Made by a program: the position numbers and the translations under genes. Under the pieces are notes generated by a model. The model saw only the letters and a program-made list of their open reading frames with translations, was not told the DNA's origin and did not search any database. From NCBI GenBank assembly GCA_025358575.1, contig JANYJA010000152.1, positions 1 to 32,860 on the forward strand: a stretch of 32,860 bases of DNA. Reading direction: 5' to 3'. How positions within the stretch are numbered: position 1 is the stretch's first letter; each line of letters opens with the position of its first letter. Origin of the DNA: Terriglobia bacterium (lineage in GTDB: Bacteria; Acidobacteriota; Terriglobia; Bryobacterales; Bryobacteraceae). Below are positions 2,873-7,678 of this stretch, one piece after another.

Positions 2873-3979
2873 TTATGTTTTTAAAGCCGTGAACGCCACG
2901 CCCACCAATGAGTCCGCGCAGCCGTAATAGAGGAACCAGTGCTTTTGGAAGTAGACCAAGCCTTCGACGAACGTGGTTCCGGCGGCGTATTGGCCAGAAC
3001 GCTCGAAGGGCAATTCAGGTTGGAAGAATGGTGAGTCCGAGCGCGCGATTAAGCGCGTTGGATCATTGGCCGAGAACAGGGCTTGCCCTGCACTGTAGGT
3101 GCTCGGCACCAATTTCATATCCCGATCGACATCGGCGTTCTTGCCGTTATAGATCATGACAATACCGCGCTGGGTGAGGACGGGCGGCGGGCCGACCTCG
3201 GGAAGAAAGCTGTCGAATCGGCCGGGACGCTTTTCTAGAAGGGCGACGGGCTCATTGCGGCTGTCTTCGACTGGTTGCCAGTCGGTTAAGTTTTTCGACG
3301 TGGCCAAACTAATCCGACCTTCGCCCCAATACATCCAGTATTTTCCAAGAATCCGGGCGGCGATCAGGTGTCCGCCGGAGAGCTTAGTCACAATAGCGGC
3401 CGACTTGTATTTCAGGTTGGAGTACTTGCCGCCATACGCTCTTGCGAGAGCCGGGCCATGTTTAGTCCAGTGGTGAAGATCACGCGAAGTAGCCACACCG
3501 ACATCGTAGGTAGAACGGTTCCATTGGGTGTACGTAAGCACGTAAGTTCCGTCCTCCGACTCCACGATCCGAGGATCTTCGCAGCCGCCTTCCCATTCGC
3601 GGGCCTTCTGAGCGTCATCCGCCGGATAGAGAACAGGCTGCGCTTCGGCCCGGAAATTCACGCCGTCATCGCTCACTGCCAGACCCAGCCGCGAGGTATG
3701 GCCACCGATGGACATCGCACCGCTGCTATCCTCGGCGCGATAGAGAACATAAACTTTGCCGTCGCGTACGATCGCCGCGGGATTGAAGGTGTGCAGGGCC
3801 TCCCACCGCACGGGGGCATTTCGCAGCGGGTCCTGGAAGACCGATGCTGCGTTGGGCTTGATCACCGGCTTGGCGTCAACCGGCCGTTGAAACGGGCCGA
3901 GGGTCCAATCCCCATTCTTGCCGCCATACGCAAGAGCGCCTACAATGCAAAGCATCGGGACCATCCACTTGCGCTTCAT
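2873..3979 (-). CDS. Secreted GH130-like glycosidase/phosphorylase (five-bladed propeller)
   Basis: A 368-residue protein with an N-terminal hydrophobic signal segment (residues 1-19) and a five-bladed beta-propeller of the GH130 type. The motif GGCEDPRIVE (D135 in EDPR) matches the family's catalytic-Asp region. FNPAAI (65-70) and the C-terminal VEGLVYF...FLYYGCAD segment are also typical. GH130 enzymes cleave beta-mannosides, either by phosphorolysis in the cytoplasm or by hydrolysis in secreted versions. The signal segment makes a hydrolase acting outside the cytoplasm more likely, but the substrate is inferred only from family membership. A ribosome-binding site (AAGGTGA) precedes the ATG. 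The gene is divergent from the Cas6-like gene across about 110 nt. Confidence 0.8.
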   Translation of the reverse strand: MKRKWMVPMLCIVGALAYGGKNGDWTLGPFQRPVDAKPVIKPNAASVFQDPLRNAPVRWEALHTFNPAAIVRDGKVYVLYRAEDSSGAMSIGGHTSRLGLAVSDDGVNFRAEAQPVLYPADDAQKAREWEGGCEDPRIVESEDGTYVLTYTQWNRSTYDVGVATSRDLHHWTKHGPALARAYGGKYSNLKYKSAAIVTKLSGGHLIAARILGKYWMYWGEGRISLATSKNLTDWQPVEDSRNEPVALLEKRPGRFDSFLPEVGPPPVLTQRGIVMIYNGKNADVDRDMKLVPSTYSAGQALFSANDPTRLIARSDSPFFQPELPFERSGQYAAGTTFVEGLVYFQKHWFLYYGCADSLVGVAFTALKT

Positions 3980-4088: not shown

Positions 4089-4934
4089 TTGAACAGGGAG
4101 GGAACCGCGCTGAATCTCACAGTAGTTCCGTTGCGGTTCCGTTTCATCGCGGTTGAGGTGCTATTTTTTCCGAGAGGCCGGGCGGCTAATTTATTCCGCG
4201 GCGCTCTCGGGAGCGCGTTTCACGCCATCTCCGCGGAGGTCTACGCGCGGTACTTCGAACCTGTCTCAGACACCGGTCCTAGTGGATTCGCCAACCCTCC
4301 GCGACCCTTCGTGCTGCGCGTTGACCACCTGGACAATTGCGAAATTCCCGAAGGACATATCTTCACTTTCGAGGTCAACTTGTTCGACGCGAGGCCGGAA
4401 GCAGTGCAGCATTTCGTGCACGCCGCCGGACTGATGTTCAACGTCGGACGCATCCCCGCGCGCCTCGACTCCCCAATAGAAGCAAATCCGATACGGCTGA
4501 ACTTGACTGCTCCCACACTTGAAGTCGGTCGCGTGCGTTTGCATTTCCTGACGCCCACCGTTCTCGATTCCCTTGAGTTCGGAGTGCTTTTCTCACGCCT
4601 TCGCGACCGTATCAGCAACCTGCGTCGCTTCTACGGAGATGGCGCATTGCCTCTGGACTTCCGCGAGATGGGCCAGCGGGCTGAAGTCGTCAAGCTGATT
4701 GCGAGCGATGTGCGGCGTGTCCGCGCCCAGCGCACCAGTCGCGCGACGGGCCAGACACATCCGCTCGGTGGATTCGTCGGCACAGCCGACTACGCTGGCG
4801 ATCTCACCGAATTCCTGCCCTTCCTAGAAGCGGGATATTGGACCGGCGTCGGCAGTCAAACCGTTTGGGGCAATGGCCAGATCGCAACTGAAGTCATTTC
4901 TCTGGCGAATCCTCACCCCGCGCCAGTCGCTTGA
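4089..4934 (+). CDS. cas6: Cas6-type CRISPR RNA endonuclease (orphan)
   Basis: This 281-residue protein has the layout of RAMP-fold Cas6 proteins, which cut precursor CRISPR RNA within the repeat. The N-terminal half has the phrase LFRGALGSAFHAISAEV (35-51) with His45 as a possible catalytic residue, then PPRPFVLR and a PEGHIF-VNLFD stretch typical of the first ferredoxin-like domain. The C-terminal half has GGFVGTADYAGDL (227-239) and the glycine-rich loop TGVGSQTVWGNG (252-263), the family hallmark. The cysteine-rich insertion seen in many relatives is absent. No CRISPR repeats or other cas genes are visible in the window, so its substrate is unknown. The start is probably the TTG at 4089; a CTG at 4110 behind GGGAGG is an alternative. 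The 3' end overlaps maf by 41 nt. Confidence 0.75.
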   Translation: MNREGTALNLTVVPLRFRFIAVEVLFFPRGRAANLFRGALGSAFHAISAEVYARYFEPVSDTGPSGFANPPRPFVLRVDHLDNCEIPEGHIFTFEVNLFDARPEAVQHFVHAAGLMFNVGRIPARLDSPIEANPIRLNLTAPTLEVGRVRLHFLTPTVLDSLEFGVLFSRLRDRISNLRRFYGDGALPLDFREMGQRAEVVKLIASDVRRVRAQRTSRATGQTHPLGGFVGTADYAGDLTEFLPFLEAGYWTGVGSQTVWGNGQIATEVISLANPHPAPVA

Positions 4935-5466
4935 GGCACGTATACACCAGCGACACCGGCAGCCCGACCACATTGCTATAGGACCCGTCAATGCGCTCGA
5001 TAAACTTCGATGCCAGCCCCTGGATCGCGTAGGCGCCTGCTTTGTCGAGCGGCTCGCCGGAGTTAATGTATTCTCCGATTTCCACGTCGCTCAACTGCTG
5101 GAACCATACAAGCGTGGTAGCCCAATCCGTGACGACATGCTCGCCCAGCTTGAGACAAACGCCAGTGAGCACCTCGTGCTTGCGGCCGGATAGAAGCCGG
5201 AGCATGCGCTCGGCGTCGGCAGCGTTGACCGGCTTGCCGAAAATCTCGCCATTCATCACGACGATGGTGTCCGCGCCCAGCACCGTCTCGTCCGCGGAGG
5301 CTGTTGCGGCGGTAGCTTTTTGCTGCGCTAGCCGCTTCACATGCTCCTCTGGATTTTCATCCGGGAAAGGCGTTTCATCCACATTCACCGGCCGAACTTC
5401 GAACTCGAGACCGGCACTCCGCAACAGTTCGCTGCGCCGCGGCGATCGAGAGGCAAGCACCAACAT
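4894..5466 (-). CDS. maf: Maf-family nucleoside triphosphate pyrophosphatase
   Basis: A 190-residue Maf protein, a cytoplasmic enzyme that hydrolyses non-canonical or surplus nucleoside triphosphates (dTTP/UTP type in the YhdE group) to monophosphate and pyrophosphate. The N-terminus MLVLASRSPRR carries the SxSPRR phosphate-binding motif. GADTIV holds the catalytic Asp, and GEPLDKAGAYAIQG and IDGSYSNVVGLP are the later family motifs. The frame continues 6 codons upstream to a TTG at 5484, but the family normally begins at this ATG. The 3' end runs 41 nt into the end of the opposing cas6-like gene, so each gene encodes part of the other's tail in antisense. Confidence 0.92.
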   Translation of the reverse strand: MLVLASRSPRRSELLRSAGLEFEVRPVNVDETPFPDENPEEHVKRLAQQKATAATASADETVLGADTIVVMNGEIFGKPVNAADAERMLRLLSGRKHEVLTGVCLKLGEHVVTDWATTLVWFQQLSDVEIGEYINSGEPLDKAGAYAIQGLASKFIERIDGSYSNVVGLPVSLVYTCLKRLARGEDSPEK

Positions 5467-5496
5467 TTGTCCAGTATGACCCAATCGACCGCATGC

Positions 5497-5502
5497 TAAA
5501 AT
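5497..5502 (+). promoter_or_regulatory. Putative -10 box (TAAAAT) for the DUF721-gatC-gatA cluster
   Basis: The octamer GCTAAAAT lies 27 nt before the ATG at 5530. The same octamer precedes ftsY and, on the minus strand, ispG. No good -35 hexamer is visible. Confidence 0.35.
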
Positions 5503-5529
5503 TCAAGCTCGAAACGTTGAGTGGATACG

Positions 5530-5931
5530 ATGGAACGAGCAAGTCTGCTGATCGGCAATCTGCGCACGCCGCAATCCGCGATCAGCGGTGAACAACTCGC
5601 GTGTACCGCCTGGGCGCGGGCTGTCGGCAAGAAGATTGCCATGCACACGCGCGCCGCGAAACTGGTCCGAACCAAACTGGTGGTTGAGGTGGAAGACGTG
5701 CTGTGGCAGCGCAATCTATTCGGCATGAGCCGCCATATTTTGGGAAATCTCGAACGCACCATCGGCCCCGGCGTTGTGGATGAGGTCGAATTTCGTATTG
5801 TGCCTCCCCGCCGCGAGCCGCAGCGCGCCGCGCAGAGTTTGCCCGGCCGTCTTTTCGACGAGGCGGACGAGATTCACGATCCCGTCCTTCGCAACATCTA
5901 CAAAGCGGCACGAAAGCGAGAATCGGCTTGA
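5530..5931 (+). CDS. DUF721 (DciA-like) protein
   Basis: A 133-residue protein of the DUF721 family. The N-terminal region has the family-typical helix-strand pattern, with CTAWARAVGKKIAMHTRAAKL (about 25-45) followed by LVVEVEDVLWQRNL. That Trp-x-x-x-L segment is characteristic. In some bacteria DUF721 proteins (DciA) load the replicative helicase; whether this one does is unknown. The C-terminal third is charged and probably flexible. The start is the ATG at 5530; a GTG three codons earlier at 5521 is also possible. The stop overlaps the gatC TTG start by 4 nt, so the two are probably translationally coupled. Confidence 0.75.
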   Translation: MERASLLIGNLRTPQSAISGEQLACTAWARAVGKKIAMHTRAAKLVRTKLVVEVEDVLWQRNLFGMSRHILGNLERTIGPGVVDEVEFRIVPPRREPQRAAQSLPGRLFDEADEIHDPVLRNIYKAARKRESA

Positions 5932-6230
5932 GTTTGACAGAAAAAGAAGTCCGCTATGTCGCGGATCTAGCAAATTTGAAATTGAACCCCGACGAATTAG
6001 AGAGAATGGTTGCCGACTTGGGCGAAATTCTCGGCCACATGGATCGCCTGGGGGAAATCAATACAGACGATGTCGCTCCAATGGCGCAGGTGCTCTATGA
6101 AGCGGATATTTCATCTACTCTCCGCGCCGACGTCCCCCGCGAAACGCTCGGCAATCAGGCTGCTCTGGCCAACGCGCCTCTTTCCGGCTCGGGCTATTTC
6201 AAAGTGCCGCTCGTGATCGAAAGATCCTAA
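5928..6230 (+). CDS. gatC: Aspartyl/glutamyl-tRNA amidotransferase subunit C
   Basis: A 100-residue GatC. This small subunit stabilises GatA and wraps between GatA and GatB in the enzyme that converts Glu-tRNA(Gln), or Asp-tRNA(Asn), to the amide form. The helical N-terminus with [18 protein letters not shown] and the central [14 protein letters not shown] segment are family features, and [16 protein letters not shown] at the end is the usual GatC tail. Translation starts at a TTG overlapping the DUF721 stop (TTGA). A second TTG at 5934 is possible. gatA follows after 11 nt. gatB is not in the window. Confidence 0.93.
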
Positions 6231-6241
6231 CTAATACGCGA

Positions 6242-7678
6242 ATGAACGCGAACACCATCTCCACTCTGACCGTTGACGGAATCCGCGCGGGTTTGCGCGG
6301 CCGCGAATTTTCCGCGCGTGAACTTGCCGAAGCCGCGCTGGCGCACGCGGAAGCGCAGAATCCCAAGACGAACGCGTATATCTTGCTCTCGCCGGAGCGC
6401 GCTTTACACGCGGCGGACCGCGTCGATGCGGCGCTCTCCCACGGCGAAGAACTTGGGCCTTTGGCCGGGGTCCCAGTCGCCGTGAAAGACGTCATTGTCA
6501 CTAAAGGCCTGCGCACCACCTGCGGTTCTAAGATTCTCGCGGACTACATTCCTCCGTATGATGCCACTGCGGTAATTCGTCTCGAAGCAGCCGGCGGCAT
6601 GATCATCGGCAAGACCAACTGCGACGAGTTCGCCATGGGCTCGTCTAACGAGAACAGCGCGTTCGGGCCGGTGCGAAATCCCGTAGCGCTTGATCGCGTT
6701 CCCGGAGGTTCCAGTGGTGGCTCGGCTGCCGTTGTGGCGCAAGGCACGGCTGTATTGTCTCTTGGCTCAGATACGGGCGGCTCTATCCGGCAACCGGCTT
6801 CGTTCTGCGGAATTATCGGCGTGACGCCCACTTACGGTCGCGTCTCTCGCTACGGGCTGGTAGCCTTCGCCAGCTCACTCGATCACATCGGCCCGTTTGC
6901 GCGAAACGTGCGCGACGCAGCCACACTTCTCGAAGTGATCGCCGGTCACGACCTGCTGGATTCCACTTCAGCGCCCGCGCCCGTCGAGCCATATTCTGCT
7001 GCGCTGACCGGCGACATCCGCGGGCTCAAGCTCGGCGTGCCACGTGAATACCTGAAAGATGCAACCGGCGAAACCGCCGCGCTTATCGCCCAGGCCATCG
7101 ACCGTCTGAAATCGCTCGGCGCCGACGTTCGCGAGATCAGTCTGCCTGCCACCGATTACGCCATCGCGTGTTACTACATCATCGCCACCGCCGAAGCCAG
7201 CTCGAATCTCGCGCGCTACGACGGCGTTCGCTACACTTTCCGGTCTGGCAGTTCCGACACTCTCACCGACATGTTCCAGAACACGCGCGGCGAAGGTTTT
7301 GGCGCAGAGGTCAAGCGACGCATCATGCTCGGCACTTATGTGCTGAGCCACGGCTACTACGACGCGTATTACCTGAAAGCTCAAAAGGTGCGCGCGCTCA
7401 TCGCCGCCGACTTCAAGAAAGCGTTCGCCGAAGTAGACGCCATTGTCGCGCCGGTCTCCCCGTTTCCCGCTTTCAAGCTAGGCGAAAAGACCAGCGATCC
7501 TATGGAAATGTATCTCTCCGATATCTACACCATCACCGGCAGTCTCGCGGGAATTCCCTGTATGAGCGTACCCTGCGGAAAGACGCAGGACGGGTTGCCG
7601 GTAGGTTTGCAGATTCTCTGCAACCATTTCGACGAAGCGCGCATGTTCCGCATCGCCGATGCATTCGAAAGAATGTAG
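6242..7678 (+). CDS. gatA: Glutamyl-tRNA(Gln) amidotransferase subunit A
   Basis: A 478-residue, full-length GatA, the amidase subunit that releases ammonia from glutamine for tRNA amidation. The amidase-signature region is intact. The Ser-cisSer-Lys triad is read as K82 (GVPVAVKD), S157 (in [10 protein letters not shown]) and S181 (in DTGGSIRQP), with the spacing expected for the family. The presence of gatCA implies that Gln-tRNA and/or Asn-tRNA are made by the indirect route. The gene lies 11 nt after gatC. The sodA start follows 28 nt after its stop. Confidence 0.96.

Follow-up and report, generated by a model that had tools for sequence, protein, structure and literature searches.

CRISPR effectors are normally patchy in distribution and tied to arrays. 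The closest described relatives of the protein reported here are the Cas6 endoribonucleases (PF10040), among them Thermus TTHB231 (4c9d) and S. thermophilus Cas6 (6fjw), with which it shares the fold over nearly the whole chain and a C-terminal glycine-rich loop; unlike them, it has no adjoining array and no conserved histidine in the first helix, with an invariant histidine, H224, instead. CRISPR-linked Cas6 proteins of Bryobacteraceae, the family of soil bacteria to which the host belongs, are of the same protein family and agree with it at columns whose conservation across rows reaches at least 90%, but their loci (L101 to L105, I-A type; L070 and L148, I-D) carry effector genes together with Cas1, Cas3, and Cas4, an array being visible as well at L101, L103, L104, and L148, and their four-cysteine cluster is missing here. 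Type III-A (Csm) systems resemble a second locus of the same genome, which encodes Cas10, Csm2, Csm3, Csm4, and Csm5 in order. That operon differs in that the family's Cas10 is about 485 residues long and lacks the HD half in relatives (we take this half to be a frequent, not universal, feature of type III-A Cas10), Csm2 has a glycine- and arginine-rich tail, no adaptation gene is seen, and the operon is nearly universal in the family.

Subtype III-G, as described in PMC12669027, has no array in its loci, its crRNA being thought to be supplied in trans, and combines Csx26, an apparently active HD nuclease, and a Cas7 without the conserved catalytic aspartate. The family operon is similar as an effector locus without adaptation genes or array but has Csm2, no HD (in relatives), and a retained Csm3 aspartate. 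A large type III survey excluded incomplete genomes and Cas10 proteins below 500 residues (PMC11229360), so surveys may have missed the Bryobacteraceae Csm, whose Cas10 is of about 485 residues in relatives. Among the matches listed for open-licence literature on lone Cas6, on Cas6 or type III systems in Acidobacteria, on CRISPR and RAMP genes in Solibacter, and on HD-less Cas10 with RGG Csm2, there was no such description. We present here a lone Cas6 that, together with a stripped-down csm operon, hints at an RNA-guided machine departed from CRISPR immunity. If true, Csm and Cas6 behaving like core genes across the family, often without Cas1 or recognizable repeats, would offer a CRISPR machine outside defence that lends itself to study and would raise the question of its guides and targets.

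The window, meaning the whole stretch of 32,860 nucleotides that was analysed, is the entire contig C215 of a 4.77-Mb, 261-contig, 95.6% complete assembly of an organism described as a soil bacterium. Its cas6-like gene (4089 to 4934, forward strand) runs unbroken for 281 codons from a TTG at 4089 to a stop ending at 4934, in agreement with the intact frame reported in a preliminary description of this DNA. The true start may be the CTG at 4110 to 4112 (forward strand) rather than the TTG, because GGGAGGG lies 7 bases upstream and most relatives begin, in the alignment, about 7 codons after the TTG. A promoter scan around the gene gave three consensus matches nearby and no terminator. PF10040 (CRISPR_Cas6) matched residues 151 to 265 at 49.1 bits (cut-off, 25), and PADLOC Cas6 models matched at values down to 3.3e-47; the narrower NCBIfam model TIGR01877 stayed below its cut-off (16.7 versus 58.65 bits). 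With a structure model of mean pLDDT 93.2, the top 33 Foldseek matches were all Cas6, Cas6-related, or Cas6-fusion chains, and VIA-align likewise ranked Cas6 chains first, the best of them at Z values of 17.9 to 17.5. Kinship to solved Cas6 is read from profile and fold, since phmmer against PDB sequences matched no Cas6. Profile and fold rule out both a chance open reading frame (ORF) and another RAMP-like family, and the preliminary assignment to Cas6 stands: as judged from sequence and model, the gene encodes a Cas6-family RAMP protein, a predicted RNA endonuclease.

Contig C215 has no direct repeat family, no CRISPR array, and no match to ten I-A/I-D cas queries, five Csm queries, or Rfam families, and a genomic link of the Cas6 to an array or cas operon was not found within it. 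As a Cas6 may work in trans, the result weakens the case for a CRISPR locus nearby and nothing more. The gene is convergent with maf (4894 to 5484, reverse strand; PF02545, 214.6 bits), the two 3′ ends overlapping by 41 bases (4894 to 4934), and divergent from a gene for a GH130-type glycoside phosphorylase (2873 to 3979, reverse strand; PF04041, 121.9 bits). The cas6 loci of 39 relatives were examined, mostly with flanks of 8 to 9 kb. Neither maf nor GH130 had a match in these loci, which excludes a conserved neighbourhood of that kind; the position beside maf, which the preliminary description had suggested checking in relatives, is therefore not kept, and the window gene does not hold the same location in different genera. 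Among five window neighbours looked for in the 39 loci, only gatA recurs, about 7 kb away in L060 and L061. The neighbours of lone cas6 genes vary without conservation across Bryobacteraceae, and a conserved partner gene was rejected, synteny being confined to small groups of relatives. A defence island around the lone copies found no support when 140 genes flanking 38 loci (at most two ORFs per side, none above 900 residues) were run through PADLOC: the best 25 of 177 matched families hold at most six members each, and one of these 25, a CAS-associated PD-DExK model, has two, single cas matches being possible beyond them.

The Cas6 is no oddity of one genome; it is family-wide, with relatives in 171 of 200 Bryobacteraceae (Acidobacteriota) genomes at E values up to 1e-3, six of them weak (E above 1e-15). 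An Acidobacteriota-wide sample gave matches in 41 of 396 genomes, 3 of which belong to Bryobacteraceae; the other 38 matches are distant (E above 1e-17), except that of genome G335 (4e-29). Cas1 is present in 108 of the 200 family genomes, and Cas6 and Cas1 are distributed independently (both, 94; Cas6 alone, 77; Cas1 alone, 14; neither, 15; p = 0.55). Arrays and cas query matches were absent from 38 of the 39 relatives' loci, the exception being L070, and in a second set of 20 loci, drawn from the remaining matches, cas genes occur in 8 (L101 to L108) and in none of the other 12. In a quick tree of 144 rows, where "unlinked" means not known to be linked and many rows have short flanks, the window copy lies in a group of 33 rows without a CRISPR-linked member (SH-aLRT, 92; not starred). 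Family rows with at least 4 kb on both sides comprise 7 linked and 48 not linked, and on a quick tree the linkage label needs at least 7 changes, so unlinking arose, or was reversed, more than once. Unlinked Cas6 copies in relatives are under purifying selection, with dN/dS of 0.06 to 0.25 in 14 of 14 pairs labelled unlinked (certain sequences enter more than one pair, flanks are short in some, and L168 and L194 belong to a single assembly); three more pairs with one linked member gave 0.09 to 0.22. The proposal that the protein is maintained is thus borne out for copies labelled unlinked elsewhere; the nearest identity to the window Cas6 in the tree set is 49%. One CRISPR locus, L103, has two adjacent cas6 genes (5676 to 6620 and 6663 to 7607), one of which clusters for the most part with copies lacking known linkage.

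The protein's N-terminal RAMP helix, NLFRGALG (residues 34 to 41; 4188 to 4211, forward strand), has invariant N34, R37, G38, and G41 and no conserved histidine in family rows. The segment RTSRATGQTHPLGGFVG (residues 215 to 231; 4731 to 4781, forward strand) contains R215, S217, H224, G228, and G231, invariant across the family. H224 is present in every family row, CRISPR-linked (11 of 11) or other (108 of 108), and in 8% of 25 outgroup rows; it is a candidate catalytic residue. The glycine-rich loop, GVGSQTVWGNG (residues 253 to 263; 4845 to 4877, forward strand), lies where a C-terminal loop had been noted at 252 to 263; an alignment of 46 rows shows no variation at G253, G255, W260, G261, and G263, and R256 of the family is S here. 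N34, R37, H224, and the loop glycines are fixed alike in CRISPR-linked and unlinked family rows. The window copy retains every residue that the 46-row alignment shows as invariant. Of 63 conserved columns it breaks 5 (D69N, E158V, loss of a K, P162L, and R256S), a tied rank of 5 among 119 where the median is 1. Its branch is long (1.2); it is among the more diverged family Cas6 proteins and may be weakening. The second cas6 of the same genome is a C-terminal fragment only (C180:1312-1524; L072), which reads RRSTRTGQRHPLGG and GVGRQTVWGKG and matches the family consensus where the window copy departs.

The missing cysteine cluster, remarked on in the preliminary description, is a genuine difference. 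Around residues 45 to 56, at least four cysteines are present in every CRISPR-linked family row (11 of 11) and in all but one of the 25 outgroup rows, and fewer than four in 64 of the 108 family rows without known linkage, the window copy included. CRISPR linkage is seen in 0 of 64 cysteine-poor versus 11 of 55 other family rows (p = 1e-4) and, with adequate flanks, in 0 of 28 versus 7 of 27 (p = 0.004), both p values being too small owing to shared ancestry.

A search for RAMP proteins found matches in 186 of the 200 Bryobacteraceae genomes, two of them on contig C172 of the window's own genome (binning, in an assembly of 261 contigs, places the two contigs together). This 5.6-kb contig encodes, in order, Cas10 (cut by the contig end), Csm2, Csm3, Csm4, Csm5, a small membrane protein, and the start of glmS. 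The cut Cas10 matched TIGR02578 at 1.5e-35 and 123 bits, under the cut-off of 170; Csm2 (43.2 bits; cut-off, 30.6), Csm3 (200.7; 90), Csm4 (135.3; 55), and Csm5 (51.5; 38.3) all scored above theirs. The preliminary statement that the gene stands without any CRISPR locus is accordingly right for contig C215 but not for the genome, which has this operon, though no Cas1 (PF01867, 0 matches); the genome scan that it advised yields effector cas genes on C172 and no arrays of the kinds sought. A Csm3 orthologue (E up to 1e-60) is present in 169 of 184 family genomes, including 124 of 129 of good quality, and is single copy in 167 of the 169. Outside Bryobacteraceae, just 16 of 393 genomes of the phylum have a Csm3 match at 1e-10, with identities of at most 47%, bar one short stretch at 59%.

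An operon of the C172 type is found in 18 of 19 relatives' csm stretches; the nineteenth, L214, is a distinct canonical type III locus in a genome that has a Csm3 orthologue elsewhere too. The relatives' Cas10 is short and lacks the HD half. As called, it has 450 to 543 residues, about 485 (18 of 18), and the best stretch of TIGR02578 starts at model position 480 in L209 (487 residues; 175.9 bits) and 489 in L219 (492 residues; 168.1 bits; cut-off, 170) of 753, versus position 4 for the canonical Cas10 of G098 (834 residues). A model of the L209 Cas10 (pLDDT 82.5) matches Csm1 structures. The cyclase motif is GGDD in 18 of 18 relatives; the Cas10 on C172 (L203:2-1051) reads SGGND, possibly a loss of the cyclase in the window's lineage. 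Csm3 D43, the aspartate of a DNPV motif, is invariant in 15 of 15 aligned rows; we take this aspartate to be the RNA-cutting residue in other Csm3 proteins. In 10 of the 18 relatives, those with alignment confined to about 110 residues, the Csm2 core is 79 to 90% identical, and in L204 to L222 this well-conserved core follows glycine- and arginine-rich, low-complexity N-terminal tails of variable length. No adaptation gene was seen in the csm operon, which in the cases checked adjoins housekeeping genes: glmS in the window's genome and, about 16 bases away in L204, a uroporphyrinogen methyltransferase/synthase gene with hemC next to it.

Cas6 and the Csm3 orthologue tend to occur together (both, 151; Csm3 alone, 18; Cas6 alone, 6; neither, 9; n = 184; p = 2e-5, inflated by incomplete genomes), while Csm3 and Cas1 show no association (p = 0.29), and we count this contrast in favour of a partnership. 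In other Acidobacteriota families, cas6 adjoins csm genes or lies no more than about 2.5 kb from them at five loci (L313 to L317), which were picked for having both matches on one contig and whose Cas6 is on the outgroup branch, not in the window's clade. Three observations count against a partnership. No family locus examined joins the two, there being no Cas6 relative in the csm stretches L203 to L222 and no csm gene in the cas6 loci compared. Eighteen of the 169 genomes with a Csm3 orthologue have no Cas6 relative, among them G039 (85% complete), whose Csm3 is the closest among the matches listed (84% identity). Finally, the closest Cas6 relative outside the family sits not with csm but in a type I locus (L321) that has an array and encodes Cas3, Cas1, and Cas4, so the window's Cas6 clade probably came from a type I locus.

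Arrays in view beside CRISPR-linked Cas6 genes of the family have repeats made of CCCC, 8 bases, and GGGG, followed by the 8-base tag AYTGAAAC or a close variant. A run of three tags at array spacing was detected in 42 of 200 genomes (39 of 108 Cas1-positive and 3 of 92 Cas1-negative genomes; reversed control, 0 genomes), and the window's genome has no such array. A covariance model of the family repeat matched 61 genomes at E up to 0.1, the window's genome not among them; Cas1 is absent from 15 of the 61, with values below 1e-4 in 8 of those, and the family-wide run of this model (R2) used stricter filters by which weak matches were lost. Both pattern and model seek family-type repeats, and other repeat types would escape them. 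Where Cas1-negative genomes were inspected, the repeats occur singly or in pairs, some of them at contig ends, and share no contig with cas6 or csm as far as the positions of these are known; such solitary or paired repeats (L276, L279, L284, L289, L293, L295, and L299) could be remnants or guide genes. Neither Cas1, tag array, nor repeat-model match was found in 74 genomes, of which 62 retain a relative of the Cas6 and 65 have a RAMP gene. CRISPR arrays are absent from the 20 csm stretches (L203 to L222), an apparent one in L216 being a 54-base tandem repeat. Solitary repeats as guides beside lone cas6 or csm genes were also rejected, R2 giving nothing convincing there (best values, 0.63 in L059 and 1.3 in the window). 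A single family-type repeat in L287 (1501 to 1537) closely follows a tRNA-like sequence, with a cas6 match about 200 bases off, in genome G029, whose contig C356 also carries Cas1.

The explanation we prefer, at slightly under an even chance, is that a trans-acting Cas6 serves a family-wide type III-A Csm complex detached from CRISPR adaptation. The window protein, a predicted RNA endonuclease, would work in trans, its likeliest partner being the Csm complex encoded by the single-copy operon elsewhere in the genome. The lone Cas6 would cut the CCCC-8 bases-GGGG hairpin just before the AYTGAAAC tag and pass the tagged guide to Csm, with guides drawn from small, solitary, or still undetected repeat loci. 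The complex would then act by cleaving target RNA and by signalling, not on DNA, since the Csm3 aspartate and GGDD are kept and the HD half is missing in relatives. It has probably been released from adaptive immunity, because adaptation genes and recognizable repeats were not found in many genomes, including the window's own. More tentatively, and as rather less likely than not, we suggest that Bryobacteraceae may have domesticated a type III-A effector, in which HD-less Cas10, Gly/Arg-tailed Csm2, Csm3 to Csm5, and a detached, cysteine-poor Cas6 would form a core-genome, RNA-guided complex for RNA cutting and signalling, using chromosomal guides for a housekeeping or regulatory task and not for adaptive immunity. 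Against the preferred explanation we count the window's genome itself, which shows no substrate repeat, has a Cas10 motif of GGND and a Cas6 with 5 of 63 departures, and owes the pairing of C172 with the window to binning.

Much of this could also be seen if Cas6 and Csm provided normal type III immunity with old spacers, the arrays lying elsewhere in the genome and having been lost in assembly or gone unrecognized. We hold this to be unlikely, though the fragmented, incomplete assembly favours it, as does the detection of tag arrays in only 39 of 108 Cas1-positive genomes, by which many must have been missed; the 15 Cas1-negative genomes with repeat-model matches point the same way, and Cas6 provided in trans is said to be used by most type III systems (PMC12669027). 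It accords poorly, however, with the scarcity of tag arrays in Cas1-negative genomes (3 of 92), with the retention of Cas6 and RAMP genes in most of the 74 genomes without Cas1, array, or repeat match, and with the lack of arrays in the 20 csm stretches. Recruitment of the Cas6 fold to process another cellular RNA, unconnected with Csm, would explain why Cas6 occurs independently of Cas1, why absence of the cysteine cluster is confined to rows without known CRISPR linkage (of 64 cysteine-poor rows, 0 are linked), and why lone cas6 neighbours are so varied; we consider it quite improbable, because Cas6 goes with the Csm3 orthologue, conservation falls on the same residues whether rows are linked or not, as a similar substrate would lead one to expect, and no conserved neighbour indicates another pathway. 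Least probable, and a rather slim chance in our estimate, is that the window copy is a decaying remnant of a lost CRISPR locus. Its broken columns and long branch, the cas6 fragment on C180, and the GGND of Cas10 would fit such decay, but the frame is open over 281 codons with the invariant residues retained, and unlinked copies elsewhere are under purifying selection, the closest of the tree set being 49% identical to the window copy.

In L204, the csm locus also holds an ATPase gene (5223 to 6110) like the XrtA/PEP-CTERM one (TIGR03015, below cut-off; L204 alone was profiled). Related ORFs are present in nine more csm loci; counting L204, the gene lies within 163 bases after csm5 in eight loci, 502 bases after it in L211, and 6.4 kb after it in L217.
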